The notes under the pieces are model-generated. The model searched no databases. It was not told the DNA's origin and saw nothing but the letters and a program-made list of their open reading frames with translations. Shown in pieces: positions 11,684 to 62,261 of a stretch of 64,000 nt of DNA (position 1 is the stretch's first letter; each line of letters begins with the position of its first letter). Made by a program: the position numbers and the translations under genes. The DNA is from Hydrogenophaga sp. (GTDB taxonomy: Bacteria > Pseudomonadota > Gammaproteobacteria > Burkholderiales > Burkholderiaceae_C). The stretch covers positions 1-64,000 of the forward strand of contig NZ_JAUSOO010000036.1 of assembly GCF_030656115.1 (NCBI RefSeq). Direction: 5' to 3'.

Positions 11684-11821
11684 GGTCTCCAGTGAAAAGG
11701 GATTGAAACGGGTTGGACGTTAACGCAATGAAGACGCTTTAAAAAGCAGATAAATTGGGATGTTAACTTCGTTAAAAGCAGATGTTTTGATGTGCAAATT
11801 CCGGGAAAACCCGCATGGCCG

Positions 11822-32166: not shown

Positions 32167-32181
32167 TTTTTTGGGCGTTGC

Positions 32182-32292: not shown

Positions 32293-33542
32293 GGTCTTGT
32301 GGCCGGTGTGGACGCTGCGGCAGGAAGGGATGCAGTCGTTGGCGCTTCAAAAATTTCAGGCAGATCAAACTTAAACTTCGTGACGAAATCTTCCAGAATG
32401 CGCCGAAACAGATCCTTGTTGTCCTCCCCCATTTCAGTCGGTTCGTGGATCGCGTATTTGCCATGGCTGAGCAGGTTCAGGGCGCGGTTGTAGAGCGCCC
32501 GGTCTTCCTCGTTGCTCAGAGCCTTGAGGCAAAAGGAAATGTCCGCATGGCCAAAGAAGGACGCGGTCTTTTCCATGATGCTGCGCAGGGCATTGAAATG
32601 AAAAGTGTAGAGCTTGCCGGTGCCGGGGGCAGCGGCGCGCTGGAGTTCGGCTAGTGACGCGACATGATGGAAGAAGGGCGTGTCGTCCGTGGCCCGAAGC
32701 GTGTAAGTCTCTCCACCGTTATCGCGATGCAGGAAGTAGCGCTTGTGCGTCACCTTTGCCTGCTCCTCTTTCGTTCTGCCAAGCTCGTTGCACATCACGT
32801 TGAAAAACAGCGCGTGATGAGATGAGAAAACCACCTTGATGGGCGCTGGCGCACCGCTCTGGTCTTTACGGCTTGCTGCGCGGCGCAGGAGCTGTGCCAG
32901 ATCGCAGGCGATAGCGATCGCGTTGTTGTCGTCCAGCGAGGAGATGGGGTCGTCGATGTAAAGGTATTTCTTCAACTGATAGGAGACATGGCCGTCGAGC
33001 ATCCGCTCGCAGATGGCCATGAAAAGGCACCAAATGAAAATGTTCTGCTCGCCTCGGGAAATCTTGATGTTCGGCTCCATGATTCGCTCAGGCTCCGCGC
33101 CCGGTCTTTGCCGCAGAACTTCTTTGGAAAAACTGATCGTCCAGTTGGTGTAGTCAATGTCGAAATCGAAGTCTGCGTAACTATCAAGATAGCCCGCAAT
33201 CGTTTCGTCCAGCGCAAGGTCTTTCAATCCATTGAAGAAAGTAGAGCGATCATTGAGGCGCAGTAGCCGGACAGCATCACCGTCGAGATCGTTCTCCCAA
33301 GTGAAGAGGTCTTCGGTGTAGGCGTTGAAATAGAGCGTGTCGGCGACACCCTGTGGATTCCTCCGGGTCCTTCGCTTGCCTGCGTCCTTGAACTCCATCG
33401 CAAGCCTTGTTTTGCCCGTGCGGTTGTAGGCGTAAAGGAGAATGATCTGCGTCGGTTTCGTAGGATTGTTCAAGTCATCTCGGAGACGTGTGACCAGCTT
33501 CCGTAGATTCGCCAAGCGATGAATCTTGGGTTTACTGGTCAT
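32289..33542 (-). CDS. prrC: PrrC-like anticodon nuclease
   Basis: A 417-residue protein close to the 396 of E. coli PrrC. The N-terminus carries a Walker A in LLYAYNRTGKTRLAMEF (36-52), an ABC-like signature ISRGEQ (161-166), Walker B YLYIDDPISSLDDNN (193-207) and an H-loop SSHH (240-243). The C-terminal nuclease domain has Arg320, Glu324 and His360, matching PrrC's Arg320/Glu324/His356 triad in order, with almost the same spacing. PrrC is held silent by its type I enzyme and cleaves tRNA-Lys when phage disable restriction. Here it lies between hsdS and hsdM with ATGA overlaps at both ends. The start overlaps the hsdS stop. Confidence 0.88.
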   Translation of the reverse strand: MTSKPKIHRLANLRKLVTRLRDDLNNPTKPTQIILLYAYNRTGKTRLAMEFKDAGKRRTRRNPQGVADTLYFNAYTEDLFTWENDLDGDAVRLLRLNDRSTFFNGLKDLALDETIAGYLDSYADFDFDIDYTNWTISFSKEVLRQRPGAEPERIMEPNIKISRGEQNIFIWCLFMAICERMLDGHVSYQLKKYLYIDDPISSLDDNNAIAIACDLAQLLRRAASRKDQSGAPAPIKVVFSSHHALFFNVMCNELGRTKEEQAKVTHKRYFLHRDNGGETYTLRATDDTPFFHHVASLAELQRAAAPGTGKLYTFHFNALRSIMEKTASFFGHADISFCLKALSNEEDRALYNRALNLLSHGKYAIHEPTEMGEDNKDLFRRILEDFVTKFKFDLPEIFEAPTTASLPAAASTPATRP

Positions 33543-34885
33543 GCCTCAACCTCGCTCAATGCTGGGAAAAGCTGCTGCATCAGGCCTTTCTTGTGGGTCT
33601 TGAGGGCTTCGTGCTTTTGGGTTTGCGCGGCGATGAGGTCATCTATGCTGGTGAGGCAGTCGGCGATGCGTTGTTGTTCGTCGGCATCTTTCGGCAACTG
33701 CACGCGCAACTTCGCTTGCTCGGTAATCCCGATGTAGGCTCTGGTTCCTCCTCCCGATACTTCGAGGAGGTTCGATTGGAATGTCATGGAGACAAATAGC
33801 TGAGCCAGGAACTCATTCGAAAGCTTCTTCCGGTCTTTGACGCGGTAATAAGTGACCTGAGGAGTCAGCATTAGATAGGGCGTGTGGATTTTTCTGACGA
33901 CAGCTACCTCACCGACGGTGCCTTTGTGCGAGAGAAGAACATCACCTTCCTTGGCGAATCCCTTTTGCAATGTGTCAGCCTGCTCTTTGCTAATGAAGTG
34001 GCAGGTTTCGATGTCGATCAGGCCACCGTTGAGATCGCTTGCCATGATGAACGGTATCCCGTTGGCGACATAGTCGGACGACTTGGGGTGAATGCTCCCG
34101 TGATTCCCGTCCTTCGGTGCATACAGAACACCGGCTTCGACCAATCCACCGACTGTAGTTGGAATCCACTCCCCGGCGTTTTGAAATTCAGGAAACCGTA
34201 GGCGGGGTTGGGTTTCGCCTTCGCGGGGGAAAAGCTGCTGCATCAGCCCTTTTTTATGGGTCTTGAGCGCGTCCACTTTCCGCGCTTGTGCAGCCAGCAA
34301 CTCGTCCAACGAACTCAGGCAGTCGGCAATTTTTTGTTGTTCGGCAGGGCTTGGAGTCGGGATTTCGACATCGAAGAAGGTCTCCTTGCTTATGTTCAGC
34401 AAACCATTGCTCCGTGCACCGCTTGTGATGTGGCGCTTTAGCTGCCTGCCATGCTGATTTTGTTCAAAGCACTGCTGAAAGAAGCCGTTTGCGTAGCCAT
34501 TCTTGAGCCGGAAACAGATGAAGACATTCGGTGCCGCGACTTCTCCCCATCCCTGCAACAGATAGACACAGCCCTGCGGGAACTTGAGCGAGTTGCCTTT
34601 GTTGAAAACAAAGTCGCCGTCTCTGACCAACACATAAAGCTGATACTGGTTGCCGGAGATGTCCCGCCCGAACTTCTCGGCCTGTGGGACAAAACCAATC
34701 CCGGCAGAGATGCTAACTGGCGTCAGCTTTTTTTCTCCGACCCGTTCCGTCACCGATGTGGCTGCTTCTCGAAGGGTGACGGGCTCCCACTCTCCCGTCC
34801 CCCGAAACTCAGGAAATCGCAGTTTCGGCACCAGCGCGGGCCTTGCCTCTTCCGTCCTCTCGGTGGTTGGCGTTTTGGGGCTCAT
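33539..34885 (-). CDS. hsdS: Type I restriction-modification specificity subunit
   Basis: A 448-residue HsdS with two target recognition domains separated by helical conserved regions. SPAEQQKIADCLSSLDELLAAQ... LKTHKKGLMQQLFP near residue 180-220 is repeated as DEQQRIADCLTSIDDLIAAQ... LKTHKKGLMQQLFP at the C-terminus. Each TRD reads one half of a bipartite target. The near-identical repeats (LKTHKKGLMQQLFP twice) are normal for the family and are sites where TRDs can be swapped. Coupled by ATGA to both neighbours. Confidence 0.95.
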   Translation of the reverse strand: MSPKTPTTERTEEARPALVPKLRFPEFRGTGEWEPVTLREAATSVTERVGEKKLTPVSISAGIGFVPQAEKFGRDISGNQYQLYVLVRDGDFVFNKGNSLKFPQGCVYLLQGWGEVAAPNVFICFRLKNGYANGFFQQCFEQNQHGRQLKRHITSGARSNGLLNISKETFFDVEIPTPSPAEQQKIADCLSSLDELLAAQARKVDALKTHKKGLMQQLFPREGETQPRLRFPEFQNAGEWIPTTVGGLVEAGVLYAPKDGNHGSIHPKSSDYVANGIPFIMASDLNGGLIDIETCHFISKEQADTLQKGFAKEGDVLLSHKGTVGEVAVVRKIHTPYLMLTPQVTYYRVKDRKKLSNEFLAQLFVSMTFQSNLLEVSGGGTRAYIGITEQAKLRVQLPKDADEQQRIADCLTSIDDLIAAQTQKHEALKTHKKGLMQQLFPALSEVEA

Positions 34886-48038: not shown

Positions 48039-48779
48039 TCAATCGCGGCCGGCCCGCTCGATGGCCGCAGCGATGGCTTCTGGATCGGTGAACCATACTT
48101 CGTGGTTGCCGCTGCACTCCGCGTAGCGGAACAGGCCCAGCCGCTCCGAGAGGCGTGGATGCCAGCCAAGGCTGTGGGGCAGTGCGGTGTCCATGCGGCA
48201 ATTGACGTAGCTCTTGGGCACGGCCATGGCCGCCATCGGTTGGCTCAGGACGATCTGGTCCTGAAACGTCTTGTAAGGGTGGACGTTGAGTTGCTCGAAT
48301 GCGCGGGTGGCCAAAGCCAGGTCGGCATCGTTGATCAAGGCCTCGCGCCAGACAGGGAAAGGCAACATCACGCCGCCGCCGGTCTGCGTGGCTATGCTGT
48401 TGAACAGTGCAACGTAGTGTGGTGGCACCAAGTCATTCAGGCGTTCGCCAGGCTGCGGCACAAAGGCGTTGACGTAAACCAGGCGCGCGATGCGTTGGGG
48501 CAGCAGATCGGCCACGCGTGAAATAACCATGCCGCCGTCGCTGTGGCCCACCAAGCGCACCTGATTCAGGTTGTGCTCTTCGATGTAGGTCTTCAGGGAT
48601 TGCGCAGCATCTTCCAGGCCGGTGCAAGCTCGGTCGTCACCGGGTCGGTTGCCGGCCAGCGTAGGGCAATGTACGGTATGTCCGACAGCACGCAGGTGGG
48701 ATGCTGCAGCCTCCAATTCCGCACCGGTGTGCCAGGTGCCGTGAACCAGCACGTAGGTGCCGGGAGTCGTGGTGTTCAT
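48039..48779 (-). CDS. Alpha/beta hydrolase
   Basis: A 246-residue hydrolase starting at 48779 with AAGGAG upstream. YVLVHGTWHTG (oxyanion region, residues 9-19), nucleophile Ser80 in GHSDGG, and a C-terminal SGNHEVW with the likely catalytic His. It resembles the EstA/salicylate-esterase-like group of small hydrolases. It lies downstream of, and on the same strand as, the broken AraC regulator, which may have controlled it. Confidence 0.85.
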   Translation of the reverse strand: MNTTTPGTYVLVHGTWHTGAELEAAASHLRAVGHTVHCPTLAGNRPGDDRACTGLEDAAQSLKTYIEEHNLNQVRLVGHSDGGMVISRVADLLPQRIARLVYVNAFVPQPGERLNDLVPPHYVALFNSIATQTGGGVMLPFPVWREALINDADLALATRAFEQLNVHPYKTFQDQIVLSQPMAAMAVPKSYVNCRMDTALPHSLGWHPRLSERLGLFRYAECSGNHEVWFTDPEAIAAAIERAGRD

Positions 48780-48911
48780 GTGTGTCTCCTTCTTTGGTTT
48801 CGCCCGCCCAGGATTGGGCTGTTGGCGTGAACCCATTCTGAACAAGACGGACTGGGGTAGATGGCCGCTGTGTGCCGTTGATATGGCCGTTGCGTGCCGC
48901 GTTGCGCAGCC

Positions 48912-49865
48912 TCATGGCCCCTTGCGCAGCGCGGCCGGTGTGTTGCCTAAATGCTGGCGGCACAGGCGCACAAAGTGGGAGGGGTCAAGGAGGCCCACGC
49001 GACGGCCAACCTCGGCCGTGGTCAGCCGACGCATGGCAGTGCTCTGCAGCATGCGTTTTGCCTGGGCCATGCGCTCGGCCATCAGTTGGTTGGCAAAGGT
49101 CTGGCCGTTTGCCGCCATGGCGCGGTGCAAGGTGTGAACTGAAACACCCAGCGAGGTGGCCACATCGGTGGCCGTGAGGCCGGGCTCTGCCAAGCGCTGG
49201 CGCAGTTGCAGTGCGACGCGCTCAGCCAAGCTTGGCATGTGGTTGGTGGCTACCGTCGTTTCACCGCACGCCAGGGAAAGCAGGCTGCCCAACTGGTCGG
49301 TGAGCAAATTGACGGGCAGCGGCGGAGCGCAGGCTATTTTGGGCTCCCACGGACGGGCAAAGGCGGCCAGTGCGCAGCCCCAACCGGGTTCGGATGTTCG
49401 GAAGGCTCGGGCCACATGGGTTTCAGGCTCTGCGAGCCAGCGGGCCACCCATTCCAGGGGAAGTTCCAGGGAGACGGTGCTGGGACCCTCGGGAAAATCA
49501 AAGTGGTAGGGACGCCGGGAGTCAACCAGGGTGAAATCGCCTGCAGCCAGCAAGGCTTGGCGGCCGTCCTGCTCTACGCGCCAGGGACTGCCCAAATTGC
49601 CCAGCTAGCAGAAGTTGTCGTGGTTGCGGGCGATGCCACGCAACGTACGCCAGACTTGCTGGGCGTCACCCGTGACACGGTTCACGCCGATGGGGACCAA
49701 CGAGGCCGAGACCAGTTCGCCACGAAACCCTTGTCGCACGGGGCTGGTGGCATCTATGGCCAGAAAGCCCTCAGAAATCGCATCCACCCAGTATTCCAGC
49801 CGCTGCGCAGGCGCAACGTCGTCGGTGCTCCAGCGATGGGGTCTGGCTGCGGCAGTGTCGTGCAT
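48912..49865 (-). pseudogene. AraC family regulator interrupted by an in-frame amber codon
   Basis: The frame from MHDTAAARPH (49865) encodes an AraC-type N-terminal ligand domain (LEYWVDAISEGF...GFRGELVSASL), then meets TAG at 49607-49605 after NHDNFC. It continues in the same frame with SPWRVEQDGRQALLAAGDF and a complete C-terminal double helix-turn-helix ending DPSHFVRLCRQHLGNTPAALRKG. The two parts together have the usual length (about 317 residues), with no shift and only this stop. The N-terminal domain would be truncated to 86 residues. A fragment from 49595 could be made separately. Inactive gene or sequencing error. Confidence 0.82.
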
Positions 49866-49990: not shown

Positions 49991-50036
49991 GTGACGGCAA
50001 TGCCTTGCAACAACGCCATGGCGGTTTTGCGTATGT
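49991..50036 (+). repeat. Short dispersed repeat related to 8658-8697
   Basis: GCCTTGCAACAACGCCATGG followed by CGGTTTTGCG aligns with the minus strand at 8658-8697. It lies about 50 bases before the MoxR start. Confidence 0.6.
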
Positions 50037-50083
50037 CCTATAGGGGATACTTGGTGTAATGCGGTTGACTCCCCCTCTTCACC

Positions 50084-51217
50084 ATGGCCACTCGCTCACG
50101 TCCCGCTGACCCAGCCCGCCTTGCCCCGGCCTCTCGCACTGCGCAGCGCCTGCCAGCCGAGCAGCTCTACGCCGACGAACTGGCGCACCTGGCCGTACAC
50201 GACACCCTGACCCGCCCACCCGGTTGGCAGCTGTCAATGCCAGCGGTGCGCAGCTTTATTCTGGGTGGCAGCGTGGCGGGCCAGACCCTGCGGCGCAAGA
50301 TGGTGTGCGCACCCAGCCTGATCGAGCGGTCGCTGGTGACGCTGGCCTCCCAGCGGGCGCTGTTGCTGGTGGGCGAGCCGGGCACCGCCAAAAGCCTGCT
50401 GAGCGAGCTGCTGGCCGCAGCGGTGTGCGGCACCAGCACACTCACCGTGCAAGGCAGTGCCGCCACCACCGAGGACCACATTCGGTACGGCTGGAACTAC
50501 GCCCTGCTGCTCAACCAAGGCCCCAGTGTGCAGGCCTTGGTGCCATCCCCCCTGCTGCGGGCCATGCAAAACGGCCAAATTGCCCGGTTTGAAGAAATCA
50601 CCCGCTGCCCGCCCGAGGTGCAGGATGCGCTGCTGTCGGTGCTCTCCGAGCGCCTGCTCACGGTGCCCGAGCTGCCCGCCCACGACACGGTATTTGCCCA
50701 GCCCGGCTTCAACCTGATTGCCACGGCCAACACCCGCGACCGTGGGGTCAACGAAATGTCGGCGGCACTCAAGCGCCGCTTTGCCTTCGAGACCGTGCTG
50801 CCGATTGCCGACCACGTCAGCGAGCTGGCGCTGGTGTACAGCGAAGTCACGCGCCTGCTGGCACAGGGTGGTGTGCCCGTCACACCCAACGAACCGTTGC
50901 TGGAAGTGCTGGTCACCACCTTTCGGGATCTGCGCCAGGGCGTGGACCAGGAAGGCGGGGCCACCGACCGGCTCAGCAGCGTGCTGAGCACCGCCGAAGC
51001 CGTCAGCGTGGCGCACGCCGTCACCCTGCGCGGCCACTATCTGCGAGGCGACAACGGCCAGCCCAGCGATCTGGTGGAGGCACTGGTCGGCACCGCCGCC
51101 AAAGACAACGCAGACGATCTCAAAAAACTGCGCCGCTACATCGAGCACCGCGCAGCCAAGCGCACTGGCGAACACTGGGTGGCCTTCCATGCCGCCCGCC
51201 ACGCCCTGCCACAGTAA
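50084..51217 (+). CDS. MoxR-family AAA+ ATPase (YehL-like)
   Basis: A 377-residue AAA+ protein. Walker A GEPGTAKS at 97-104, Walker B/FEE at 169-171, sensor 1 LIATANTRDRGVNEM at 211-225 and the arginine region LKRRFAFE at 229-236. MoxR ATPases remodel or load substrates, usually with a VWA-protein partner; one is encoded four genes downstream. It is first in the six-gene operon and overlaps the DUF5682 gene by 29 bases. By family and neighbours it corresponds to E. coli YehL. Confidence 0.9.
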   Translation: MATRSRPADPARLAPASRTAQRLPAEQLYADELAHLAVHDTLTRPPGWQLSMPAVRSFILGGSVAGQTLRRKMVCAPSLIERSLVTLASQRALLLVGEPGTAKSLLSELLAAAVCGTSTLTVQGSAATTEDHIRYGWNYALLLNQGPSVQALVPSPLLRAMQNGQIARFEEITRCPPEVQDALLSVLSERLLTVPELPAHDTVFAQPGFNLIATANTRDRGVNEMSAALKRRFAFETVLPIADHVSELALVYSEVTRLLAQGGVPVTPNEPLLEVLVTTFRDLRQGVDQEGGATDRLSSVLSTAEAVSVAHAVTLRGHYLRGDNGQPSDLVEALVGTAAKDNADDLKKLRRYIEHRAAKRTGEHWVAFHAARHALPQ

Positions 51218-53708
51218 ACGCGGCGAAACCGTGGTGCAGCCCCGCATCATTGGCATCCGCCACCACAGCCCGGCCTGTGCCCGGCTGGTGGCCCATGCGC
51301 TGACCCAGGATAGACCCGCCGCCGTGCTGATTGAAGGCCCCGCCGATTTCAACGCCCGCATGGCCGAGCTGCTGCTGCCGCACCGCCTGCCGCTGGCGCT
51401 CTACAGCTATGCCCACACCGAGCAAGGCGTGTCGCAATGCTGGTTTCCGCTGGTGGACCATTCGCCCGAGTGGGTGGCCCTGAAGCAAGGCCACGCCCAG
51501 GGAGCCACGGTGCGCTTTGTGGACTTGCCACACTGGCAGTACCGCACCCTGCCTGCCCAGGCCCGTCACCCATTGGCAGCGCCAGACCGCTATGCCCGCC
51601 TCACCCAGGCACTGGCCCAGCGGCTGGCTTGCGATGGCGACCATGCGCTGTGGGATCACCTGTTCGAGTCGCAGGCGCTGGACCATGCCGCCGCCTTCCA
51701 GGCGCTGGAGCAGCGTCTGGCGGTGTACTTCCATGATCTGCGCGGCGACCCCGCACAGCCCACTACGCCAGACGATGCGGCCCGCGAAGACCACATGGCG
51801 CAGTGGCTGGCCTGGGCCTGCCAGCACTTTGCGGGGCAGCCGGTGCTGCTGGTCTGCGGCGGCTGGCACAAGCGGGCCATCGAAGCCCTGTGGCCCACAC
51901 GCCATGTGCCGCAGGAGCCCACCAGCCCCGCCGCACCCGAGGTAGGCACAGCAGGCGCGTATCTGGTGCCTTGCGAATACCGCCAGCTCGAAGCCCTGGC
52001 GGGCTATGCCGCAGGCATGCAATCGCCGCAGTATTACCAGTGGCTGATGCAACGCGGTGCCGGGCCAGCGGCACGCCAGGCCACGCAAGCCATCGTGCAG
52101 CGGCTGCGGGCCAAAAAACTGCCCCTGAGCACCGCCGACTGGGTGGCCTTTGAAGCCACCCTCACCGGTCTGGCTCGCTTGCGCGGGCATGCCGAGCCAC
52201 TTCGCGTGGACATTCTGGATGCCGTGCAGTCGGCCTTCGTCAAAGAAGCCCTCGATGCCCCCGCCCCCTGGAGTGGCCACCGGCTGCTGACCACCCAAGA
52301 CCACCCCGTGCTGCGCGAAGCCCTGCTGGCCCTGACCGGCGAAGGGAGTGGCCAGCTGGCCCCCAACACGCCCCTGCCGCCGCTGGTGGCCGATGTGGCC
52401 CGGCGGCTGGCTGACAGCGGCCTGAGCCTGAGCACCACCCCCCAGACCAAGGTGCTGGACCGCCGCCACCCTGCCGACCTGCCAGCCGCACACACCCTGT
52501 GGCAGCTCAAGCTGCTGGGCATTGAAGGCATCACCCTGACGCAACTGCGCGTACCCACGGGCACCCAGCACCTGCACCAGACACTGGCCTACGAAGAACA
52601 CTGGCACCTGGTGCAACACCCGCGCTGGCTGCCCAGCCTGATAGAAGCCGCCGCCCACGGCTCCACCCTGGCCGCCGCCGCCCGCGCCTGCCTGCTGGCA
52701 CGCCTCACCCCCGACCCGTCAGCCAGCCGGCCCCCTCAACCCTCTGCCAACGACCTGGCCCAAGGGCTGACCGAGGCCATCCGCGCCGGTTTTTTTGACC
52801 TGGGCGATGCGCTGGCCCACGCCCTGACGGCCAGCATCCAGGCCAGCCACCACCACGGCGAGCTGGCCACCGCCGCACAACTGCTACTGGATGTGGCCAC
52901 CGCAGGCTTCTGGGGGCAAGACACCCGCCCCATGCTGCTGGCCACCCTGCAAGCCCTGGGCGAGCGGCTGCTGTGGCTGCTCGATGCCCTGGACATGCCA
53001 CAGCACACCCACCCCCACACCAGTACCGGCACCGCTGCCGCCACCCAGCCCGCCAGCCCCCACAGCCGGGCCACGCTGGATGCCGATGTGGCCGCCGTGC
53101 GCGCGCTCGGCGGCCTGCTGCGCCTGGGTGCCAGCCAGCCCGTGGCCGGTTTCGATGCAGATTTCGCGCTGGCTTGCCTGTTGCGCTTTGCCCGCTCGGC
53201 CCACACACCACCCGCGCTGCGCGGTGCGGCTGCGGGGTTGGCCTGCACCCAAGCCCACCGCTACCCGCCAGACGGTGGCCTGGCACCGGGCGAACTGGTG
53301 GCTCTGATGCGGGCCATTCCCCCGCGCACCCAGCTGGGCGACTACCTGTTTGGCCTGTTTGCCCTGACCCGCGCCCTGGTACAAGACCAGCCCGAGCTGG
53401 TTCAAGCCCTGCACGACACCCTGGCACAGATGAGCCACCAAGACTTCATTGCCGCTTTGCCCGCTCTGCGCGAAGCCTTTGCCTGGTTTCCTCCGCGCGA
53501 GCGGGGCCACATGGCCGCCCAGGTGGCGGGCCTGCTGGGTCTGTCCGCCCCCGAACGCAACCAATTGACACAACTGCCCCAAGGCGGGGCACTGTATTTA
53601 CATGCACGCCGCACCGAATCCCAGGCACTGGCCTGGGCACAAGCCTGCGGCCTGCTGGAACCACCACATCCGTCGCATCTGTCACCTCTGCAACCCTTGC
53701 CACCATGA
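51189..53708 (+). CDS. DUF5682 family protein (YehM-like)
   Basis: An 839-residue protein. The N-terminal domain starts RIIGIRHHSPACARLV near residue 19 and continues VLIEGPADFN and VRFVDLPHW, the hallmark of DUF5682. It shares features with erythromycin-esterase/TraB-like folds (HHSP, EGP), so a hydrolytic role is conceivable but unproven. The rest is helical, Ala/Leu-rich, and possibly repeat-like. The start at 51189 lies inside the MoxR gene, and the stop overlaps the next ATG (ATGA). It is encoded with MoxR, DUF4132, VWA and SWIM partners, as in the yeh locus of E. coli. Confidence 0.85.
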   Translation: MPPATPCHSKRGETVVQPRIIGIRHHSPACARLVAHALTQDRPAAVLIEGPADFNARMAELLLPHRLPLALYSYAHTEQGVSQCWFPLVDHSPEWVALKQGHAQGATVRFVDLPHWQYRTLPAQARHPLAAPDRYARLTQALAQRLACDGDHALWDHLFESQALDHAAAFQALEQRLAVYFHDLRGDPAQPTTPDDAAREDHMAQWLAWACQHFAGQPVLLVCGGWHKRAIEALWPTRHVPQEPTSPAAPEVGTAGAYLVPCEYRQLEALAGYAAGMQSPQYYQWLMQRGAGPAARQATQAIVQRLRAKKLPLSTADWVAFEATLTGLARLRGHAEPLRVDILDAVQSAFVKEALDAPAPWSGHRLLTTQDHPVLREALLALTGEGSGQLAPNTPLPPLVADVARRLADSGLSLSTTPQTKVLDRRHPADLPAAHTLWQLKLLGIEGITLTQLRVPTGTQHLHQTLAYEEHWHLVQHPRWLPSLIEAAAHGSTLAAAARACLLARLTPDPSASRPPQPSANDLAQGLTEAIRAGFFDLGDALAHALTASIQASHHHGELATAAQLLLDVATAGFWGQDTRPMLLATLQALGERLLWLLDALDMPQHTHPHTSTGTAAATQPASPHSRATLDADVAAVRALGGLLRLGASQPVAGFDADFALACLLRFARSAHTPPALRGAAAGLACTQAHRYPPDGGLAPGELVALMRAIPPRTQLGDYLFGLFALTRALVQDQPELVQALHDTLAQMSHQDFIAALPALREAFAWFPPRERGHMAAQVAGLLGLSAPERNQLTQLPQGGALYLHARRTESQALAWAQACGLLEPPHPSHLSPLQPLPP

Positions 53709-56700
53709 CCACTACTGTCCGCCACCCAAAAACCACCGCCAACCCCCTGCTGGCCCGCCCCGATGGCAGCCGTGCCACCTCCGCTTGGCTGAACGCAAGG
53801 CGCAATGAGGCCGAAGCAGCCCTCCAGCACATGCACAAGCACGCGACCCATTCATACGCATTGCTGGGGCCGAACAACACGCCCGAAGTCAACGGCGCAC
53901 TGGTTTCAAAGTACCCCTACAACAGCGACCTGTACAGGGTGCTGCTGGCCGACTGGCACGGCGAAGCGGTGCTGCCCCTTCTGGAAGAACGGATCAGTTC
54001 CACCATCTGTCTGCGCCTGGTGTGCACCTTCCACACCGATGCCGCACAGGCCCTGCTGATGCGCCATGTGGACCAACCAGCGGTGCGTGCTGCCGTCATC
54101 GACCGCTCCAGGCGCTGGCCCGTGGACACCCTGCGCCGCCTGCTGGCTCAAGCCCCCAGCCGCACCCAAGCCGCAGCACAAGTGCTGCTCAAACTGGTGG
54201 ACGAGCACCCCGACTGGCTGGCGGCGCTGCAAACCCAGTTGGCCCAGGCCCCTGCCGACGATGCCCAGGGCAGCGCCGAGCGCAAGGTGCTGGAGCGCCT
54301 GCTCAGCGCCCCCGCCGAGCGCATACCCGATGCCAGCCCGGACGAACTGCCCCCCATCCTGCGCCAGCCCCCTTGGGCCAACCGCAAAGCACAGCCGCCG
54401 CTGCCAGTGCTGGCACTCCAAGCCTTGCCAGACGAAGCCGTGGTGCATTGGGATCGCTGGCAACTGACACCGTCACACGGCACACCCAAACAGGTGGTTG
54501 AGATTGATTTTCGTTGCGAGAACTTTAACGAAAGTCTCTCACCAGAGGCATCTGCCCAAACCCAGGCGACGGAGAATCCGCACTGCCCATGGTCCATTCC
54601 GAAAAAAGCCCTGTTTCTGCTGGGTGTGCCGCCGCAACGGCTGGACGCGGTACTGGCAGCCGAAGCCCTGCAACCCGATGATTTGCAATCTTTCCCCACA
54701 AAATGGTGTTCCGACCGGCTGAGCTACCTGGCCGTGTTGAGCGACGGACTGGCCATGTCAACACTGCGGCAATGGATCCACCCCGCCTCGCAACGAACCC
54801 CGGATGACTGGGGTTTCAACAGCTATGGATATCTCTCCTCTGCGTTCACCAGCCTAGCTCACCATTTCAGGCACCTGGGGCCTGCTTTCACCGAGCTACT
54901 GTTGCAGCAGTCACTGCATAAATTGCAAAAAAATTGGGTGCCATTTCTGAACGTCCTGGAATCAGTGGACTTGGCCGCCTGGATGTCCAAGGTGGGCTAC
55001 CCAAGCCGCTACCACCGCGCCTACGTTCAGCAATGGCTCAACCAGTACGCTGCCTGCGCGGCACAGGCCCTGATTCCACTGGCCTTCGGTGCCGACCCGG
55101 CCCAGTACGGACATGCCCGCCATCACCTGCACTGGCTGGCCCGCAACGGCCACCGGCAGGCCATTGACGCACAGGCCGCCCGCCACGGCCCCGCCGCTGT
55201 GCAGGCTGTGGCGCAGCTGCTGGCCGTGCCGCTGGAATGTCTGCTGCCCGACAAGCTGCCCACCGCCCAGCCCAAATGGCTGGCACTGCACGCCTTGCCG
55301 CCACTGCTGCTGGCTGGCTCGGGCCAGGCCGTGCCGCAGGCGCAGGTGCCTGCGGTGCTGATGTGCATGGCGCTGTCCAAAGGTGGTCTGCCCTACGAGG
55401 GGCTGCGGCTGGTCGAGCAGGCCCTCACCCCCGATTCACTCAGCCGGTTTGCCCTGGCCCTGTTCAAGCAATGGGAGGCCAACGACTCGCCCACGAAAGA
55501 CCGCTGGATTTTTGAACAGCAAGGCCGCCTGGGCAACGATGCCACCGCCCGCGCACTGGCCCAGAGCATCCGCCAGTGGCGTGCGGGACTCAACCGCATC
55601 CGCGCCTACGAAGGGCTGGAGATGCTGGCCGAGATCGGCACCGACACCGCCCTCATGCTGCTCCACAGCTTTGCCCAGCAGGCCCGGTTTGGCGACCTGA
55701 CCGACCGCGCCACCCAGGCCATCCAGCGCGTGGCCAACGAACGCGACCTGACGATGGATCAACTGACCGACCGCACCGTGCCCACCCTGGGGCTGAACGA
55801 GCGCGGTCTGCTGGTGCTGGATTTCGGGCCGCGCCAGTTCCAGGCCCACCTCACCCCCGACCTGACCCCACTGCTGGCCGATGCCGAAGGCCGCCCGCTC
55901 AAAACCCTGCCCAAACCCAACGCGCAAGACAGTGCCACACAGGCCAAAGACGCGGCAGCGGACTGGAAAGACTTTAAAAAACAGCTCAAAACCGTGGCCA
56001 GCGCCCAGATCGCCCGCCTCGAAAACGCCATGTGCCAGCAGCGCCGCTGGACGGCCAACGAGTTCATCCCCTTTTTTGTGCGCCACCCGCTGCTGCGCAC
56101 CCTGACACAGCGGCTGGTGTGGGCCGCGTTTGACGCATCGGGCCAGCTGTTGGGCTGCCTGCGCATTGCCGAAGACCTGACGCTGGTCGATGTGGCAGAC
56201 GAGCCCTTTGACCTGGACACGCTGCCCGAAGGCAGCCACCTCGGACTGCCCCACCCGCTGGAGTTGCTTGAAGACGTGCGCAATGCCTGGGGCCAGCTGC
56301 TGGCCGACTACGGCATTGCGCAACCCTTTGAACAACTGGCCCGCCCGCTCCACACATTGACAGCCGATGAGCTGACCCGCGCCGATTTGCCGCGCTACGC
56401 CGACCGCCTTGTGGGCACAGGCAGCCTGCTGGGCCTGGAAAACCGGGGTTGGAAGCGCCACGCGGGCGACGGCGGCATGATTGACCACTTTGCCAAACCC
56501 GTGGCCCCCGGCCTGGTGGCGAGGCTGTGCATAGAAGAAGGCGAATGGTTCATTGCCGGCCCGCCACCCGCTGGCGATGTGAGCCACACCCTGAGAGGCC
56601 TGTACCTGATCCGCAGCGCCAGCAGCAACACCACCGCGACAGCCGCCCCACCCCGCTGGGCCGAGTTGCCCCCCATCGCCCAGGCCGAAATGCTGCGCGA

Positions 56701-56731
56701 CCTGGAAAAAATGGCCTGGCATACCCACTGA
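53705..56731 (+). CDS. DUF4132 family protein, first paralogue (YehI/MolR-like)
   Basis: A 1008-residue protein. The N-terminal two thirds are helical (HEAT-like in appearance: CLRLVCTFHTDAAQALLMRHV, RRWPVDTLRRLLAQ). The C-terminal DUF4132 domain (about 685-1008) begins LTDRTVPTLGL and includes DWKDFKKQLKTVASAQIARLE, FIPFFVRHPLLRTLTQRLVW and LGLENRGWKRHAGDGGM. I do not see the WGR domain of E. coli YehI. The next gene is a shorter paralogue with the same C-terminal motifs. Function unknown; it is embedded in the MoxR-VWA operon. Confidence 0.85.
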   Translation: MTTTVRHPKTTANPLLARPDGSRATSAWLNARRNEAEAALQHMHKHATHSYALLGPNNTPEVNGALVSKYPYNSDLYRVLLADWHGEAVLPLLEERISSTICLRLVCTFHTDAAQALLMRHVDQPAVRAAVIDRSRRWPVDTLRRLLAQAPSRTQAAAQVLLKLVDEHPDWLAALQTQLAQAPADDAQGSAERKVLERLLSAPAERIPDASPDELPPILRQPPWANRKAQPPLPVLALQALPDEAVVHWDRWQLTPSHGTPKQVVEIDFRCENFNESLSPEASAQTQATENPHCPWSIPKKALFLLGVPPQRLDAVLAAEALQPDDLQSFPTKWCSDRLSYLAVLSDGLAMSTLRQWIHPASQRTPDDWGFNSYGYLSSAFTSLAHHFRHLGPAFTELLLQQSLHKLQKNWVPFLNVLESVDLAAWMSKVGYPSRYHRAYVQQWLNQYAACAAQALIPLAFGADPAQYGHARHHLHWLARNGHRQAIDAQAARHGPAAVQAVAQLLAVPLECLLPDKLPTAQPKWLALHALPPLLLAGSGQAVPQAQVPAVLMCMALSKGGLPYEGLRLVEQALTPDSLSRFALALFKQWEANDSPTKDRWIFEQQGRLGNDATARALAQSIRQWRAGLNRIRAYEGLEMLAEIGTDTALMLLHSFAQQARFGDLTDRATQAIQRVANERDLTMDQLTDRTVPTLGLNERGLLVLDFGPRQFQAHLTPDLTPLLADAEGRPLKTLPKPNAQDSATQAKDAAADWKDFKKQLKTVASAQIARLENAMCQQRRWTANEFIPFFVRHPLLRTLTQRLVWAAFDASGQLLGCLRIAEDLTLVDVADEPFDLDTLPEGSHLGLPHPLELLEDVRNAWGQLLADYGIAQPFEQLARPLHTLTADELTRADLPRYADRLVGTGSLLGLENRGWKRHAGDGGMIDHFAKPVAPGLVARLCIEEGEWFIAGPPPAGDVSHTLRGLYLIRSASSNTTATAAPPRWAELPPIAQAEMLRDLEKMAWHTH

Positions 56732-56782
56732 ATATCCATATCCCCGATACCGCTGACCCACCCACCACACAGCAAGCTTGCC

Positions 56783-58987
56783 ATGACATCCTCCAAAGCG
56801 ACTGCACAGACCCCGCCGCTCAGCACAGCAGACATCCATGCCACGCCCGACGGACAGTTTCACTGGTCACCTGCCAACCGCCAACTATTGGCCCAAGCAC
56901 AGGAGCTCCCAGCACCGGACGAGGCGGGCATGACAGCCCCGGAGCAAAACCGCGATTTTTACGCCAGCTTCCGCAGAGCTGCCCGCCTTGACCAACGCCT
57001 TGAAGTCGTTGAACTGGTTCAACTGCTGCATTGCCAGCCCCAAGCTGCTTTCGATGTATTCCGGGGACTGTTGAGCGGCATGGAATCGGCGTATGAGCCG
57101 ATGCTGCGCAAATCCGAATACAGCAAGGCCCGCAAGCTGCTGGCCATCATGATGGATTGGCACGATGCCCGGCTGCTTGATCTGTTGATGATCTATGACA
57201 ACGAACCCATGATGCAAGAGGCTTTGTTGAACTGTGTACCGCGCTGGCCCTTGTACACGCTGCGGTACTTGCTGGATCAACGAACCCGCCATTCAGGTAC
57301 TTTTGTTGTCAACAATTTGCGCGCCCACCCCGACTGGTTGGAGCACCTGCGGCCAACATGCAGCGAGGCCCAACTGGATCGCCTGAACAGGCTGACCACT
57401 GACATCGACTGGGCCAGCTGGTCCGCCACAGACCAGGGCGGTGCACATGGCAACGCCGCCCCAGCCGCCCACCTGCCACCCGATACACCAGCCTTGCTGC
57501 GCGAGCCCCCCTGGCTGCGCGCCACCAAACCCACGGCCAAAGAAAAAGCCACCCAACCCTGGTTGAAGCTACCCACCAAGCTGCCAGGTGTCCCGCACTA
57601 CATCGACACAGAGAAATTGGCCAAGCCAGTGCTGCGCGAGAGCGGTCTGCCTCTTTCATCTGAACCCACACAGCATCTGTTGCAAATGCTGGCCCTGTGC
57701 AAGCCCCGCCAACCCTACAGTGGGCTGGCACAGGTGCTGCCCGCTTTCACGCCCACATCGCTGGCAGAAATGGGGCGGAAACTGTGCCTCGACTGGGCGG
57801 TGGCACGCTACCCCACCGAGCACAACTGGATACTTCTGGCCCAAGCCTGGCTGGGCGATACCACTACGTTGGAGGAATTGAAGGACGATATCGCCGATTG
57901 GCCCAGCGAGGGAGCCTTTGGCCGCGCCAAGCTGGGCCTGCAAGTGATTGCCGACATGGGCATTTACCAGCAATCGGACGAGGCGCTGCGTGCGCTGGTG
58001 CGCTTTGCCGAAAAAGGCAAACCCTCACTGCGCGGCCCCGCACGCCAGCAAATACAGATCGCGGCACAGGGCATGGGCCTCAGCCCAGACCAACTGACCG
58101 ACCGGCTCGTGCCCACCCTGGGCCTGACCGAGGCGCAGGACTGGCAGTTCAGCTTGGGCCAGCGCCACTACACCCTGCACTTTGACGAAAGCCTGCTGCC
58201 CTACGTGACCGATGCCAAGGGCACCCGGCTCAAAGACCTGCCCAAACCCACCACCAGTGAACAAGCCGAGGACGATGTACGCCGCTGGAAGGCCCTGAAA
58301 AAATCTGCCCGCACCCTGGCCAGCGAACAGATTGCCCGGCTGGAACTGGCCATGATGGGCACCCGTGATTGGACGCGGTCCGACTTCGAGCGCATCTTTA
58401 TGCAGCACCCGTTGCTGCGCCTGCTGGGGCAGCGCCTGTTGTGGGTCAACACCCCACCCGACGGGGGCGGTGTGACGCTGTTTCGCCTGTCCGAAGAGTT
58501 CAGCCCATTGAATGCACAAGACGAGCCGGTGACCCTGCCCGACAACACCCGCATCACCCTGGCCCATCCGCTGGAAATGACACCCGAAGAGCTGGCCGTG
58601 TGGCAGCAGGTGTGGGATGACTACCGCATCGTGCCCCCCTTTGAACAATTGCACCGTGCCGTCTTGCGCCTCACACCCGAAGAGCTGACCCAGCCTGCAC
58701 ACATCGTCCGCCAACTCGATCAACCGGTGGCCGTGGGCAGCTTGCTGGGTTTGCTGCAAAAAAACTGGACGCGCGTGGGCGATGGCGCAGACGTGTTCGG
58801 CCTGCGCCTGGCTCTGGGCGAGGGAGCCAGCGCAACCGTCGATTTGCAAGAGGGCTTTTGCGTTGCCGTGCCCAACTCGACCCCTGTGCAGCACCTGCGC
58901 GAAGTCGGTTTTCATGGCCCTTGCACCGACCGCCAGCGCAGCGAAGTGCTGCGCACCCTCAGCCTGCTGCCCCCGCCCACCGCCTGA
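56783..58987 (+). CDS. DUF4132 family protein, second paralogue
   Basis: A 734-residue protein. From about residue 436 it parallels the C-terminus of its neighbour: LTDRLVPTLGL, WKALKKSARTLASEQIARLE, FERIFMQHPLLRLLGQRLLWV, LGLLQKNWTRVGDGADVFGL. The N-terminal part is helical and more divergent. The tandem arrangement suggests an old duplication, perhaps giving a heteromeric pair. It starts 51 bases after the first copy, the largest gap in the operon, and is followed 8 bases later by the VWA gene. Confidence 0.83.
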   Translation: MTSSKATAQTPPLSTADIHATPDGQFHWSPANRQLLAQAQELPAPDEAGMTAPEQNRDFYASFRRAARLDQRLEVVELVQLLHCQPQAAFDVFRGLLSGMESAYEPMLRKSEYSKARKLLAIMMDWHDARLLDLLMIYDNEPMMQEALLNCVPRWPLYTLRYLLDQRTRHSGTFVVNNLRAHPDWLEHLRPTCSEAQLDRLNRLTTDIDWASWSATDQGGAHGNAAPAAHLPPDTPALLREPPWLRATKPTAKEKATQPWLKLPTKLPGVPHYIDTEKLAKPVLRESGLPLSSEPTQHLLQMLALCKPRQPYSGLAQVLPAFTPTSLAEMGRKLCLDWAVARYPTEHNWILLAQAWLGDTTTLEELKDDIADWPSEGAFGRAKLGLQVIADMGIYQQSDEALRALVRFAEKGKPSLRGPARQQIQIAAQGMGLSPDQLTDRLVPTLGLTEAQDWQFSLGQRHYTLHFDESLLPYVTDAKGTRLKDLPKPTTSEQAEDDVRRWKALKKSARTLASEQIARLELAMMGTRDWTRSDFERIFMQHPLLRLLGQRLLWVNTPPDGGGVTLFRLSEEFSPLNAQDEPVTLPDNTRITLAHPLEMTPEELAVWQQVWDDYRIVPPFEQLHRAVLRLTPEELTQPAHIVRQLDQPVAVGSLLGLLQKNWTRVGDGADVFGLRLALGEGASATVDLQEGFCVAVPNSTPVQHLREVGFHGPCTDRQRSEVLRTLSLLPPPTA

Positions 58988-58995
58988 AGGCTGGC

Positions 58996-60141
58996 ATGAC
59001 AGCACCCATCCCCGAGCTGACCCCGGCGCAACGCTGGCGCTTGCTGCTGGGCGAGGCCGCACAGCCCATCCTACAGCCCGGCTTGGGTGCTGCCCACCCA
59101 CACACCTCTGCGATGGACGGGGCTTTGGCCTGGCTGTATGGCCGCGACGATGGGCTGCAACCCGCCGACATGCTGGACAGACACGGTGGCCACGAAGCCT
59201 CGCGCCTGAGCGTGCCCGAGTGGATCAACCAGATACACACGCTGTTTCCCCGGGAAACCATTGAGCGGCTGGAGCGCGATGCCATCGAACGCTACGGCAT
59301 TGATGAAATCGTCACCAACCCCGACGTGCTGGCCCGCGCCACCCCCAACCCAGCCCTGCTGGCCGCCGTCATGCGCACCCGGCACCTGATGAACCCGGCG
59401 GTACTGGCCCTGGCACGTCAACTGGTGGCCCAGGTGGTGGCCGAGCTGATGGACAAGCTTGCGCACGAGCTGCGGCGTTCTTTCTCGGGCACGCGCCAGC
59501 GCCAGACGCTGGGCAGGCAAGGCGCATCCAGCCAGTTTGCCGCCCGCGAAACCCTGCGCCGCAACCTGCGCCACTACGATGTGCAGCGCCAACAGCTGGT
59601 GGTGCCACACCCCTTGTTTCACACCCAGCTGCGGCGGCACTTGCAGCGGTGGCAGGTGCTGCTGCTGGTGGATCAAAGCGGCAGCATGGTGGGCAGCGTG
59701 ATCCATGCCGCCATCACCGCCGCCTGCCTGTGGAACCTGCCAGGCATCCAGACCCATCTCATTGCCTTTGACACCCAAATCGTCGATCTGACCCGCGAGG
59801 CCCACGACCCCGTGGAAACGCTCATGCAGGTGCAGCTGGGCGGCGGCACCGACATTGGCCGTGCCGTGGACTATGCCGCCAGCCAGATCGAGGTGCCCAA
59901 ACGCGCCATCGTTGTCATCATCAGCGACTTTTACGAGGGCGGCAGCGAATACGTGCTGACAGAGCATGTGCGTGCGCTGGTTGCACAAGGCACCCAGGTG
60001 CTGGGCCTGGCCGCGCTGGACGAGCAGGCCAACCCCAGCTACGACCGCCAGCTGGGCGCACGGCTGGTGGAAGCCGGTGCCCACATCGCAGCCATGACCC
60101 CCGGCCAGCTGGCGGGCTGGCTGGCCGAAAAAATCCAATGA
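58996..60141 (+). CDS. VWA domain protein (YehP-like)
   Basis: A 381-residue cytoplasmic protein. The N-terminal helical region (1-215) precedes a VWA domain with an intact metal-ion-dependent adhesion site: DQSGS at 226-230, Thr in GGGTD at 282-286 and SDFYEGG further on. VWA proteins of this kind are partners of MoxR ATPases. I use the ATG at 58996; the open frame upstream overlaps the DUF4132 gene. The stop overlaps the SWIM gene start (ATGA). Confidence 0.9.
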   Translation: MTAPIPELTPAQRWRLLLGEAAQPILQPGLGAAHPHTSAMDGALAWLYGRDDGLQPADMLDRHGGHEASRLSVPEWINQIHTLFPRETIERLERDAIERYGIDEIVTNPDVLARATPNPALLAAVMRTRHLMNPAVLALARQLVAQVVAELMDKLAHELRRSFSGTRQRQTLGRQGASSQFAARETLRRNLRHYDVQRQQLVVPHPLFHTQLRRHLQRWQVLLLVDQSGSMVGSVIHAAITAACLWNLPGIQTHLIAFDTQIVDLTREAHDPVETLMQVQLGGGTDIGRAVDYAASQIEVPKRAIVVIISDFYEGGSEYVLTEHVRALVAQGTQVLGLAALDEQANPSYDRQLGARLVEAGAHIAAMTPGQLAGWLAEKIQ

Positions 60142-62261
60142 CCATGCCACCGCCTGCCGACCAGCCCCCCGCAGCCAACCACACCCCTGGCTCTCCACTG
60201 CATGCCAGTGTGCGCACAGATTTGATCCACCTCACCCCCGAGGCCCTGACCCAACTCACCAACGCCGGGTTGGTCAAACGCGCCCAGCGCGAGTACGCAG
60301 CGGGCTACCAGCCCAGCCTGACGCTGCTGGACGATGCCACCCTGGTGGCTGAATTCCCTGATGGCATCACCACCCGCTGGCCAGCGGGCAGGCCGATTGC
60401 CCAAGCCCAGTGCAACTGTGTGGCCACCAGCATGTGTCGCCACCGCATCATTGCGGCCTTGCGGTTCAGAGACGGTGTGATCTCCGAGACACCCACCACC
60501 ACACCGCACACCAGCACCACCGCACCACCGCCGCAGCAGCCAGATCCACCTTCCCCCGGTCAGGCCAGCGATGCCCTGCTGGCTGCCCTGCTGGCCCCCA
60601 ACCTGTTGGCCCACGCCGCCAAAGTGCGTGATGCGGGCCTGGTGGTCCAGACTCGCCGCAGGCAGGCGGGCGAACCCTGCGACACCGCCCGCCTGCCTGC
60701 GGCCACGGTGCGTTTCTGGGCCGGTTCGGCCATCGAGGCCGCACGCTGCGATTGCATCCACCAGTCTGCCTGCGAGCATGTGGCCTTGGGCGTGTGGGCA
60801 TTTCGCCTGGCCGATGCCCATGCCCCGGCGCAGGCCAGCACAGCGGTGCAACTGGGCACACCCGCCTCGGCCCTGCACCTGGACAGTGCCCCCTACCTGG
60901 CCCTGCTGGCCACCTTGCTGCAACACGGCGTGGTCAACGGCCCAGCGGCCAGCGCCCAGGCCTTGAGCGTGGCCCAGACCGCCGCCCGCGCCAGCGGTGC
61001 GCAGTGGCTGGAGCTGACGCTGCTGGACATGGGGAACTGGGTCACCGCCTACACCGCCCGCAGTGCCCGCTACGCCATCGAAACCGGGGCCGACCTGGCC
61101 GCCGAGCTGGTGCTGCGCCTGAAGCAAGGGGCCGCTGCCGGGCAGGCCAAAGCTATTTTGGGCGTGGGCCAGCCCGGTCAGGTGGCCCTGGACAGCCTGC
61201 GCCTGATGTGCCTGGGCGCACGCACCGAGCGCGACGGCCCACAGCGCCTCACCCGGCTGGTGCTGGCCGATGTGGACACCGGCACCCGCATGGTGCTGAT
61301 GCACCCTTGGCAAGTGCCCGCCGACCAGGGCGAGGCTGCCGAAGCCGCGCTGCGCGCACAGACACGCCTGGCCCCCGGCCTGCCCATGCGGGCCTTGGTC
61401 AGCGGCCAGCTGCTGGCGCAACAGGCCAAGCGCCTGGCCGATGGTCAGGTGCAACTGTCACGCACCCGCACCTCGCACAACAGCCTGCTGCCCCAGTCGG
61501 GCGACTGGAGCCCGCTGCCGATGCCACTGAAGCACACGCGGGTGGCCGATCTGCGGCACGAGCGCAACCTCCACCCGCACCGACTGACACAAGAAAGACG
61601 CGCCGCCCGCACCTTCACCGTGTTCAGCCCCCACCGGGTGGACGATGTGCTGTACGACCCCTACGAACAAACCGTGCAATGCGTGGCCTACGATGCCGAC
61701 GGCGAGCCCCTGCTGGTGCGCCGCAGCCACGAGACCCACAACCGCCAGGCGCTGGCACTGCTGGCCGCCATTGCCAGCGGAGCCCACGGCCCCGTGCGCC
61801 ACCTCAGTGGCACGCTGCGCTGGCTGGACGACCTGCCTCTGTTGGAGCCGTGGAGCGTGGTGTGCAACGAGCTGCTGGTGCTGGACTTTGCCCCCTCAGA
61901 CACCCGCCCCGACGCACTGGCCAGCCTGCCCCTGGGCCAGCTGCACCAGCGGGTTCCCCGCAACCCGCTGCTGGCGGCGCTGGACATGGTGCGTGCGCTG
62001 GGCGGCGCTGTGCTGCACCACGGAGCCGCCCAGTTGCCCGGCTCATGGCAGGCCGATGCGGCAACCGCCGCCGCCCAGCTCCATGCACTGGGCCTGACCG
62101 CGTTGTCACAGGCCCTGACACTCACCGCCCGGCATGTCAGCACCTTCGCCAGTCAAGGCTCAGGTGGCGCAGCACTGGCCGACCAGTTCGCCCGGCTCAT
62201 GGGCTTGCGCCAACTGCACGAAGACGCATTGGCCGTCCTGAGGAGCGAGACCCAGGCGTGA
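60138..62261 (+). CDS. SWIM zinc-finger protein with two motifs (YehQ-like)
   Basis: A 707-residue protein. A first SWIM motif C-x-C-x5-C-x-H lies at Cys92, Cys94, Cys100, His102 (CNCVATSMCRH), and a second of identical spacing at Cys204, Cys206, Cys212, His214 (CDCIHQSACEH). A Pro/Thr-rich linker (118-142) separates them. SWIM fingers bind DNA or protein. The long C-terminal part has no recognised domain. Last gene of the operon. Confidence 0.88.
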   Translation: MTMPPPADQPPAANHTPGSPLHASVRTDLIHLTPEALTQLTNAGLVKRAQREYAAGYQPSLTLLDDATLVAEFPDGITTRWPAGRPIAQAQCNCVATSMCRHRIIAALRFRDGVISETPTTTPHTSTTAPPPQQPDPPSPGQASDALLAALLAPNLLAHAAKVRDAGLVVQTRRRQAGEPCDTARLPAATVRFWAGSAIEAARCDCIHQSACEHVALGVWAFRLADAHAPAQASTAVQLGTPASALHLDSAPYLALLATLLQHGVVNGPAASAQALSVAQTAARASGAQWLELTLLDMGNWVTAYTARSARYAIETGADLAAELVLRLKQGAAAGQAKAILGVGQPGQVALDSLRLMCLGARTERDGPQRLTRLVLADVDTGTRMVLMHPWQVPADQGEAAEAALRAQTRLAPGLPMRALVSGQLLAQQAKRLADGQVQLSRTRTSHNSLLPQSGDWSPLPMPLKHTRVADLRHERNLHPHRLTQERRAARTFTVFSPHRVDDVLYDPYEQTVQCVAYDADGEPLLVRRSHETHNRQALALLAAIASGAHGPVRHLSGTLRWLDDLPLLEPWSVVCNELLVLDFAPSDTRPDALASLPLGQLHQRVPRNPLLAALDMVRALGGAVLHHGAAQLPGSWQADAATAAAQLHALGLTALSQALTLTARHVSTFASQGSGGAALADQFARLMGLRQLHEDALAVLRSETQA

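Follow-up and report, generated by a model that had tools for sequence, protein, structure and literature searches.

A yeh-type operon of Hydrogenophaga sp. encoding a MoxR-VWA pair and a predicted TIKI-like hydrolase

What common task could be carried out by a MoxR-type AAA+ ATPase, a DUF5682 protein, two large DUF4132 proteins, a VWA protein and a SWIM-type protein encoded side by side? The question is raised by positions 50084-62261 of a 64,000-nucleotide stretch of Hydrogenophaga sp. DNA (RefSeq assembly GCF_030656115.1, contig NZ_JAUSOO010000036.1, positions 1 to 64,000), hereafter the window. The six open reading frames (ORFs) form one operon; an initial annotation, made from the letters alone, had proposed this arrangement, and the ORFs and Pfam agree with it in the six + strand genes, their overlaps and gaps, and their coordinates (Table 1). 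Pfam likewise upholds the MoxR, DUF5682, DUF4132 and VWA assignments, while the SWIM protein, which had no Pfam match at E ≤ 0.1, is assigned from its motifs only. We tentatively propose, with a probability of about 0.42, that the operon encodes one machine in which the MoxR-VWA pair would drive a TIKI-like hydrolase, with its targets selected by the SWIM and HEAT-like parts, perhaps in the response to DNA damage. This proposal is built on sequence comparisons and predicted structures.

The predicted TraB/PrgY/TIKI-like domain of DUF5682

The N-terminal ~240 residues of DUF5682 very probably form a domain of the TraB/PrgY/TIKI type, as judged from a structure model and profile matches. The idea of a TIKI-like enzyme came from motif reading, before any model existed. 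The AlphaFold2 (AF2) model of DUF5682, computed from 38 sequences (mean predicted local distance difference test score, pLDDT, 85.5; predicted template modelling score, pTM, 0.84), was aligned by VIA-align with chains 8b6h_DQ and 8bqs_DQ (Z 9.7) and 7w5z_E (Z 9.5) over 182-198 residues, within model residues 4-239 and with a root-mean-square deviation of 4.4-4.6. These three chains are the only ones among the 50 VIA rows that fit the N-terminal part alone; the remaining rows fall within the helical C-terminal part or extend into it. Their depositor name, 'TraB family protein', was learned after the structure match, and a PDB search with a TraB alignment returned the same three chains (two distinct sequences) as its sole rows, with E 0.012.

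Profile comparison with hhalign pointed in the same direction. The DUF5682 N-terminal profile matched PrgY-type TraB at 50% over 192 columns with six TraB sequences, at 59% with nine, and at 68.4% over 224 columns after the addition of 12 DUF5682 rows, which included the second subtype described below (subtype A). Five other profiles used as controls in the first round gave 0.04-2.6%; in the richer round, six other profiles gave 0.06-9.3% and reversed profiles 0.08-0.20%. A row of 99.3% to a DUF5682 C-terminal profile was discarded as trivial self-overlap. The alignment pairs GIRHH, LIEG, REDHMA and CGGWH of DUF5682 with the TraB motifs GTAH, AVELC, RDRYMA and GAGH, respectively.

Residues R24, H25, H26, E49, E94, D112, E160, R199, E200 and H227 are invariant in 50/50 DUF5682 sequences of both subtypes. 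For R24, H25 and H26, the invariance is partly due to selection, since 37/50 sequences were found with a pattern holding RHHSPA; the three residues are nevertheless present in 13/13 sequences found without this pattern and in 12/12 of another such set, window included. Cleavage by RRSP needs all of its 2His/2Glu residues, as stated in a passage of PMC6254334. DUF5682 has a His-Glu pair on consecutive strands and a second His, with H25/H26, E49 and H227 aligned with TraB, and E94, E160, E200 and D112 are invariant as well. DUF5682 thus resembles TraB/PrgY/TIKI proteins in its predicted fold, the first His of a GX2H-type motif, the Glu on the next strand and the second His in register; it differs from them in its large, fused helical C-terminal part and in the AAA+ and VWA partners encoded alongside. 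The G of the first TIKI motif is present in the window and forms the majority in 38 rows, although it is P in 8/12 rows of one set; the G two positions before H227 is A in 8/50 DUF5682 sequences.

Several results speak against a TIKI-like enzyme. Foldseek alone gave no match to the DUF5682 model at E ≤ 0.001, and the highest VIA row was an importin (Z 10.6). The highest hhalign control, MoxR, reached 9.3%, and GumN-type TraB profiles did not match DUF5682 (hhalign 0.65% and 2.6%); PrgY and GumN profiles match each other at 94.6%. Counterparts to the 2His/2Glu set amount to three of four. Taking both sides together, we regard the TIKI/TraB-like assignment, which is new in the present analysis, as probable, with DUF5682 as a predicted hydrolase. 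Among 5.39 million open-access papers (most subscription journals and all bioRxiv preprints were outside their scope), none mentioned DUF5682 or DUF5691; three mentioned DUF4132, never together with DUF5682.

The MoxR-VWA pair and its putative scaffold

The initial annotation took the MoxR ATPase and the VWA protein as suggesting ATP-driven remodelling, and the residues involved are intact. Those that we take to be the MoxR Walker A/B, sensor N and arginines are invariant in 15/15 aligned sequences, and DxSxS, T260 and D311 of the VWA protein, presumably its metal ion-dependent adhesion site (MIDAS), in 25/25. MoxR is thus one half of a MoxR-VWA pair, with intact ATPase motifs beside a MIDAS-bearing VWA protein. 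Among proteins of solved structure, midasin is the closest to MoxR in sequence (E 5.9e-27, ~100 positions). PDB profile searches with the DUF5682, VWA and SWIM alignments returned weak rows only (best E 0.88, 0.31 and 0.067, respectively). In NCBIfam, all matches of MoxR were below threshold (GvpN, 38.6 of 266.8 bits; MadB, 31.3 of 475 bits), and the VWA protein had two weaker sub-threshold matches.

RavA-ViaA, CoxD-CoxE, the VMAP/iSTAND ternary systems and midasin share with the window a MoxR AAA+ protein plus a MIDAS VWA partner, and differ from it in the third component. RavA, whose partner is ViaA, carries a LARA domain. The operon falls outside the VMAP/iSTAND/beta-propeller ternary class: its MoxR scores 18.6 of the 27 bits required for bpMoxR, and no Pfam match among the six proteins points to such a third component.

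According to a passage of PMC7159879, characterized MoxR-VWA pairs are believed to work through the capture of a peptide by the VWA protein and its remodelling by the ATPase. By analogy, the MoxR ring and its VWA co-chaperone would act on a protein substrate, or on the DUF5682 enzyme, by capture and remodelling. The HEAT scaffold, which bears a WGR domain in many relatives, and the SWIM fingers would bring the machine to its target, where DUF5682 would then hydrolyse a peptide or ester bond.

The same pair has also been considered as a chaperone for metal or cofactor insertion, with MoxR and VWA as CoxD/CoxE-like maturation factors and, as their dedicated client, either DUF5682, which would then be a TIKI-like enzyme that binds metal, or a DUF4132 protein. 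The VWA protein is of the CoxE type (174.9 bits), CoxD-CoxE and the chelatases are among the MoxR-VWA pairs listed in part of PMC7159879, and Tiki is metal-dependent; the passage of PMC6254334 that states this also describes RRSP, another TIKI enzyme, as metal-independent. Moreover, SWIM, WGR and HEAT parts would be unexpected in a maturase serving one enzyme. A search for further partners among 4777 unlabelled neighbour ORFs of 97 loci revealed no cluster beyond the set common to most loci, although the simple way in which ORFs were called in GC-rich DNA limits the power of this search. The largest of the 25 clusters listed, which are unannotated, covers 21/97 loci; many look genus-bound or like junk frames, and the subtype A cluster turned out to be SWIM and DUF5691. 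We consider the maturase explanation rather unlikely.

As for the putative scaffold of the proposed hydrolase machine, the DUF4132 model (45 sequences; pLDDT 81.0, pTM 0.77) consists of a HEAT-like solenoid (~72-687) and a separate C-terminal alpha/beta domain. The Foldseek and VIA lists for this model were filled by the HEAT part, and the C-terminal domain was without a match in them. Residues R771, E773, H794, R820, H850, D868, Y869 and R880 are invariant in 45/45 sequences; the invariant C-terminal residues (protein a residues 700-1005) may also suit a second enzyme. Copies a and b are 29-31% identical, and a recent DUF4132 duplication was therefore rejected. In the SWIM protein, motif 1 is kept in 39/39 aligned sequences and motif 2 in 23/39.

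Conservation, subtypes and distribution of the gene set

A scan of 84,980 species, each represented by a single genome, with the DUF5682 alignment identified at least 525 relatives among at least 593 pattern matches. For the best 80 of these relatives, neighbours on the operon strand were classed with iterated hidden Markov models; as DUF5682 was the query, the counts give the frequency of its neighbours and not how often the other families occur alone. DUF5682 is present in 80 loci, VWA in 77, MoxR in 74, SWIM in 73 and DUF4132 in 67. All five families occur in 64/80 loci, and in 54/60 of those with both flanks in the sequence examined, confirming the expectation that the genes are kept together in other genomes. 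The window carries the five families contiguously on one strand, and their proposed correspondence to E. coli yehI/L/M/P/Q is borne out, going by the names in the E. coli annotation.

The commonest order, DUF4132-MoxR-DUF5682-VWA-SWIM, was found in 58/80 loci, and is frequent rather than defining for the yeh-type set. The window departs from it with the order MoxR-DUF5682-DUF4132-DUF4132-VWA-SWIM. A DUF4132 gene between DUF5682 and VWA, in single copy, occurs in L119 (1/80), L203 and L204, all of them on rhizobial plasmids. A tree of 86 rows was built by a quick method from DUF5682, MoxR and VWA, with long branches flagged and 11/97 loci omitted as incomplete; its named rows represent six phyla (Pseudomonadota, Actinomycetota, Myxococcota, Acidobacteriota, Planctomycetota and Chloroflexota). 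In this tree, the window forms a pair with Rhizobacter with a support of 100 in the Shimodaira-Hasegawa-like approximate likelihood ratio test (SH-aLRT). The window lies outside a group, supported at 89, that comprises the rows from rhizobia, Variovorax, Burkholderia and E. coli. A shared origin of the window order and the rhizobial plasmid loci was rejected, as the two do not group in the tree, with a support of only 89 for the fork that separates them. Their separate positions suggest that the window-type order arose more than once.

Two features had been taken to distinguish the window from E. coli, a duplicated DUF4132 and the lack of a WGR domain. The former did not hold: the E. coli locus has two DUF4132 genes, the first with an internal stop in the strain examined, and at least two DUF4132 ORFs were found in 30/80 loci. 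Counting fragments, and with some contigs cut, 37 loci have one such ORF, 15 two, 14 three, one four and 13 none. The latter is correct for the window and of limited value as a mark. WGR, a DNA-binding type of domain, was detected with our own profile in 47/80 loci, 46 of which have it as part of a DUF4132 ORF, and the other 33/80 likewise show none in the DNA examined; Pfam finds WGR in 3/7 proteins tested. The window copy is a rearranged, WGR-free variant of a conserved uncharacterized operon.

E. coli molR-yehI-yehL-yehM-yehP-yehQ (Escherichia loci L099 and L106 in our comparison) shares with the window the five families, the relative order MoxR-DUF5682-VWA-SWIM and the two DUF4132 genes. 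It differs in that the DUF4132 genes, one with WGR (a domain also annotated in an E. coli record), are located upstream of yehL and in that yehK is present, whereas in the window both DUF4132 genes lie between DUF5682 and VWA, WGR is absent and the locus branches with Rhizobacter. The E. coli name MolR implies a role in molybdate regulation, which is very improbable as the function of the set. The name is what favours it, and a passage of PMC8533742 repeats the suggestion; the same source describes moeA and moeB as not differentially expressed, and no molybdenum gene is named in seven annotated neighbourhoods.

The host encodes a second DUF5682 on another contig, of another subfamily (809 bits versus 290 bits for the window copy). 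This second set is represented by L004/L005 (G000:C64), with DUF5682 at 52778-55309. Relatives of this protein, including L025, occur in the order SWIM-DUF5691-MoxR-DUF5682-VWA (subtype A); a Deinococcus taeanensis plasmid is annotated with this order, and a Methylosinus plasmid shows its first four genes. Subtype A shares with the window type (subtype B) MoxR, DUF5682 with its His/Glu/His residues, VWA and a SWIM-motif protein; it differs in that DUF5691, a HEAT-like protein with HEAT matches below the cut-off, replaces DUF4132, and in its shorter SWIM protein with one motif. A remote relationship between DUF5691 and DUF4132 was rejected (hhalign 0.41%), and the SWIM proteins of the two subtypes align at the zinc motif alone (hhalign 2.8%). 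There are, then, two subtypes with MoxR, DUF5682, VWA and a SWIM-motif protein in common and an exchangeable helical-repeat protein, DUF5691 or DUF4132; this architecture is new in the present analysis, and the host carries both subtypes.

Near the host, the set is patchy. DUF5682 was found in one of 35 congeners, belonging to the other subtype, in 16/370 genomes of the host's class (13 above the cut-off) and, by protein search, in 17/397 genomes of its phylum, the own genome included in both counts. Of 72,556 plasmid records, 26 have a match, some of them chromosome-sized. On plasmid pl1 of Iodobacter fluviatilis (L202), the operon adjoins type I restriction genes, with insertion sequence (IS) elements beside the DUF4132 genes; a short SWIM gene is followed there by an overlapping hypothetical gene. 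On an E. coli F-type plasmid (L205), the yehI-to-yohO stretch lies between IS26 copies near resistance genes, apparently taken along from the chromosome.

The patchiness, the plasmid records, including the one beside restriction genes and IS elements, and the MoxR-VWA conflict systems described in the literature would suit a MoxR-VWA switch comparable to the VMAP/iSTAND ternary systems, at the core of an anti-phage or conflict system whose effector would be DUF5682. The initial annotation had raised this option, for which we found little support. In PADLOC (2023 library), 0/6 operon proteins had a match at E ≤ 0.1, and 2/9 neighbours had weak matches, to what we interpret as an Mrp-like ATPase and a response regulator. 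The genes closest to the operon encode an AraC-type regulator, a hydrolase and a glutaredoxin-domain protein, and the bpMoxR score lies below its cut-off. The E. coli yehL-yehQ stretch has a match in 5290/5426 genomes of this species, and in 5155/5426 the match covers 80% or more of these four genes. Among 39 pattern matches in viral contigs, none encodes a confirmed relative, and 1/50,697 phage records has a partial match; this record, MT835988.1, from human faecal samples, has a partial DUF5682 relative at 11763-12776 that is 26.5% identical. We consider a defence function unlikely.

The coordinates of the operon are collected in Table 1. The palindrome upstream of the first gene has overlapping 12-nt arms that are 83% complementary; it occurs once in the window and is one of three inverted repeats in the stretch upstream of the operon. 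At 48039-49595, the AraC-type regulator adjoins an alpha/beta hydrolase, and one congener has a similar adjacent pair of matches. The gene to the right of the operon is 88% alike in one congener from 62268 on, directly beyond the SWIM stop. No clean empty site was found: the upstream side of this gene in the congener has no match, and the left-flank genes have relatives elsewhere. The lowest G+C of any 2-kb segment in the window, 0.535, is at 32001-34000 (other values 0.585-0.720), possibly an acquired stretch.

Table 1. Features of the Hydrogenophaga sp. operon (positions in the window).
Feature	Position	Strand	Evidence and remarks
20-bp imperfect palindrome GTATGTCCTATAGGGGATAC, candidate operator	50031-50050	n/a	Inverted-repeat scan upstream of first gene
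MoxR-type AAA+ ATPase, 377 aa	50084-51217	+	Pfam AAA_5, 131 bits, domain at 50360-50782
DUF5682 protein, 839 aa	51189-53708	+	Pfam 289.7 bits (cut-off 26); overlaps MoxR gene by 29 bp
Predicted TraB/PrgY/TIKI-like domain, DUF5682 residues 19-239	51243-51905	+	Model and profile matches
Invariant DUF5682 codons	H25/H26 51261-51266; E49 51333-51335; H227 51867-51869	+	Alignment
DUF4132 protein a, 1008 aa	53705-56731	+	Pfam 173.7 bits (cut-off 27); 4 bp overlap with DUF5682
Parts of DUF4132 protein a	HEAT-like solenoid ~53918-55765; DUF4132 domain 55889-56452	+	Model, Pfam
DUF4132 protein b, 734 aa, shorter paralogue	56783-58987	+	Pfam 145.1 bits (cut-off 27); 51 bp gap after a
DUF4132 domain of protein b	58220-58762	+	Pfam
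CoxE-type VWA protein, 381 aa	58996-60141	+	VWA_CoxE 174.9 bits at 59458-60120; 8 bp gap before
SWIM-type protein, 707 aa	60138-62261	+	Two C-x-C-x5-C-x-H motifs, 60411-60443 and 60747-60779; 4 bp overlap with VWA

A possible DNA-damage link and implications of the proposed machine

Of the possible settings of the proposed machine, the likeliest would be the handling of proteins where nucleoprotein is damaged or under stress, given that DUF4132/WGR relatives have been reported under damage control by LexA in E. coli and by DdrO in Deinococcus. In E. coli, molR is listed as LexA-regulated in passages of PMC4576408 and PMC11039860; in Deinococcus radiodurans, DRA0166 (DUF4132) and DR2173 (WGR) are induced by mitomycin C in an IrrE-dependent manner, according to part of PMC8533742. 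The E. coli locus has a LexA-type box with one mismatch whose end is 10 bp upstream of the first DUF4132 gene; there are 10 one-mismatch sites in the whole locus, with 9.06 expected by chance.

The damage link is the weakest step of our best explanation and is suggestive only, because no LexA-type box was found at the start of the window operon. Other observations also count against it. Three LexA-type patterns searched in window positions 40001-64000 and in the 80 loci gave no recurring site at the operon starts covered, many starts lying outside the DNA; general LexA/SOS control of the set was rejected, which leaves the literature and one E. coli site. The one Deinococcus locus examined belongs to the subtype with DUF5691, and its annotation in the stretch covered lists no DUF4132. 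No WGR domain was found in the window operon or in the host genome (97% complete), and the WGR-borne DNA link is therefore not directly applicable to the host. The whole set is absent from the viable reduced E. coli strain DGF-298 (a passage of PMC10652928), and the DUF4132 region is disrupted in an ST131 subbranch of 184 isolates (part of PMC9334617), indicating that the set is dispensable, at least in part.

A more specific explanation, which we consider quite unlikely, is that DUF5682 is an AAA+-gated protease of the TIKI type: MoxR and VWA would extract or unfold DNA-bound proteins and pass them to the attached TIKI site, and the SWIM and HEAT(-WGR) scaffold would recognize the nucleoprotein. 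If true, this would add a new class to the ATP-dependent proteases, one with no relation to the proteolytic sites of Clp, Lon and FtsH, with two scaffold subtypes, present in several phyla and most E. coli, and possibly clearing protein from damaged DNA.

For the broader proposal of one machine built around a TIKI-like hydrolase, the set concerned is present in most E. coli and in at least six bacterial phyla. The probable TIKI/TraB assignment, with named residues to mutate, and the two subtypes with interchangeable scaffolds would turn an unknown 12-kb operon into a machine that is testable in E. coli.

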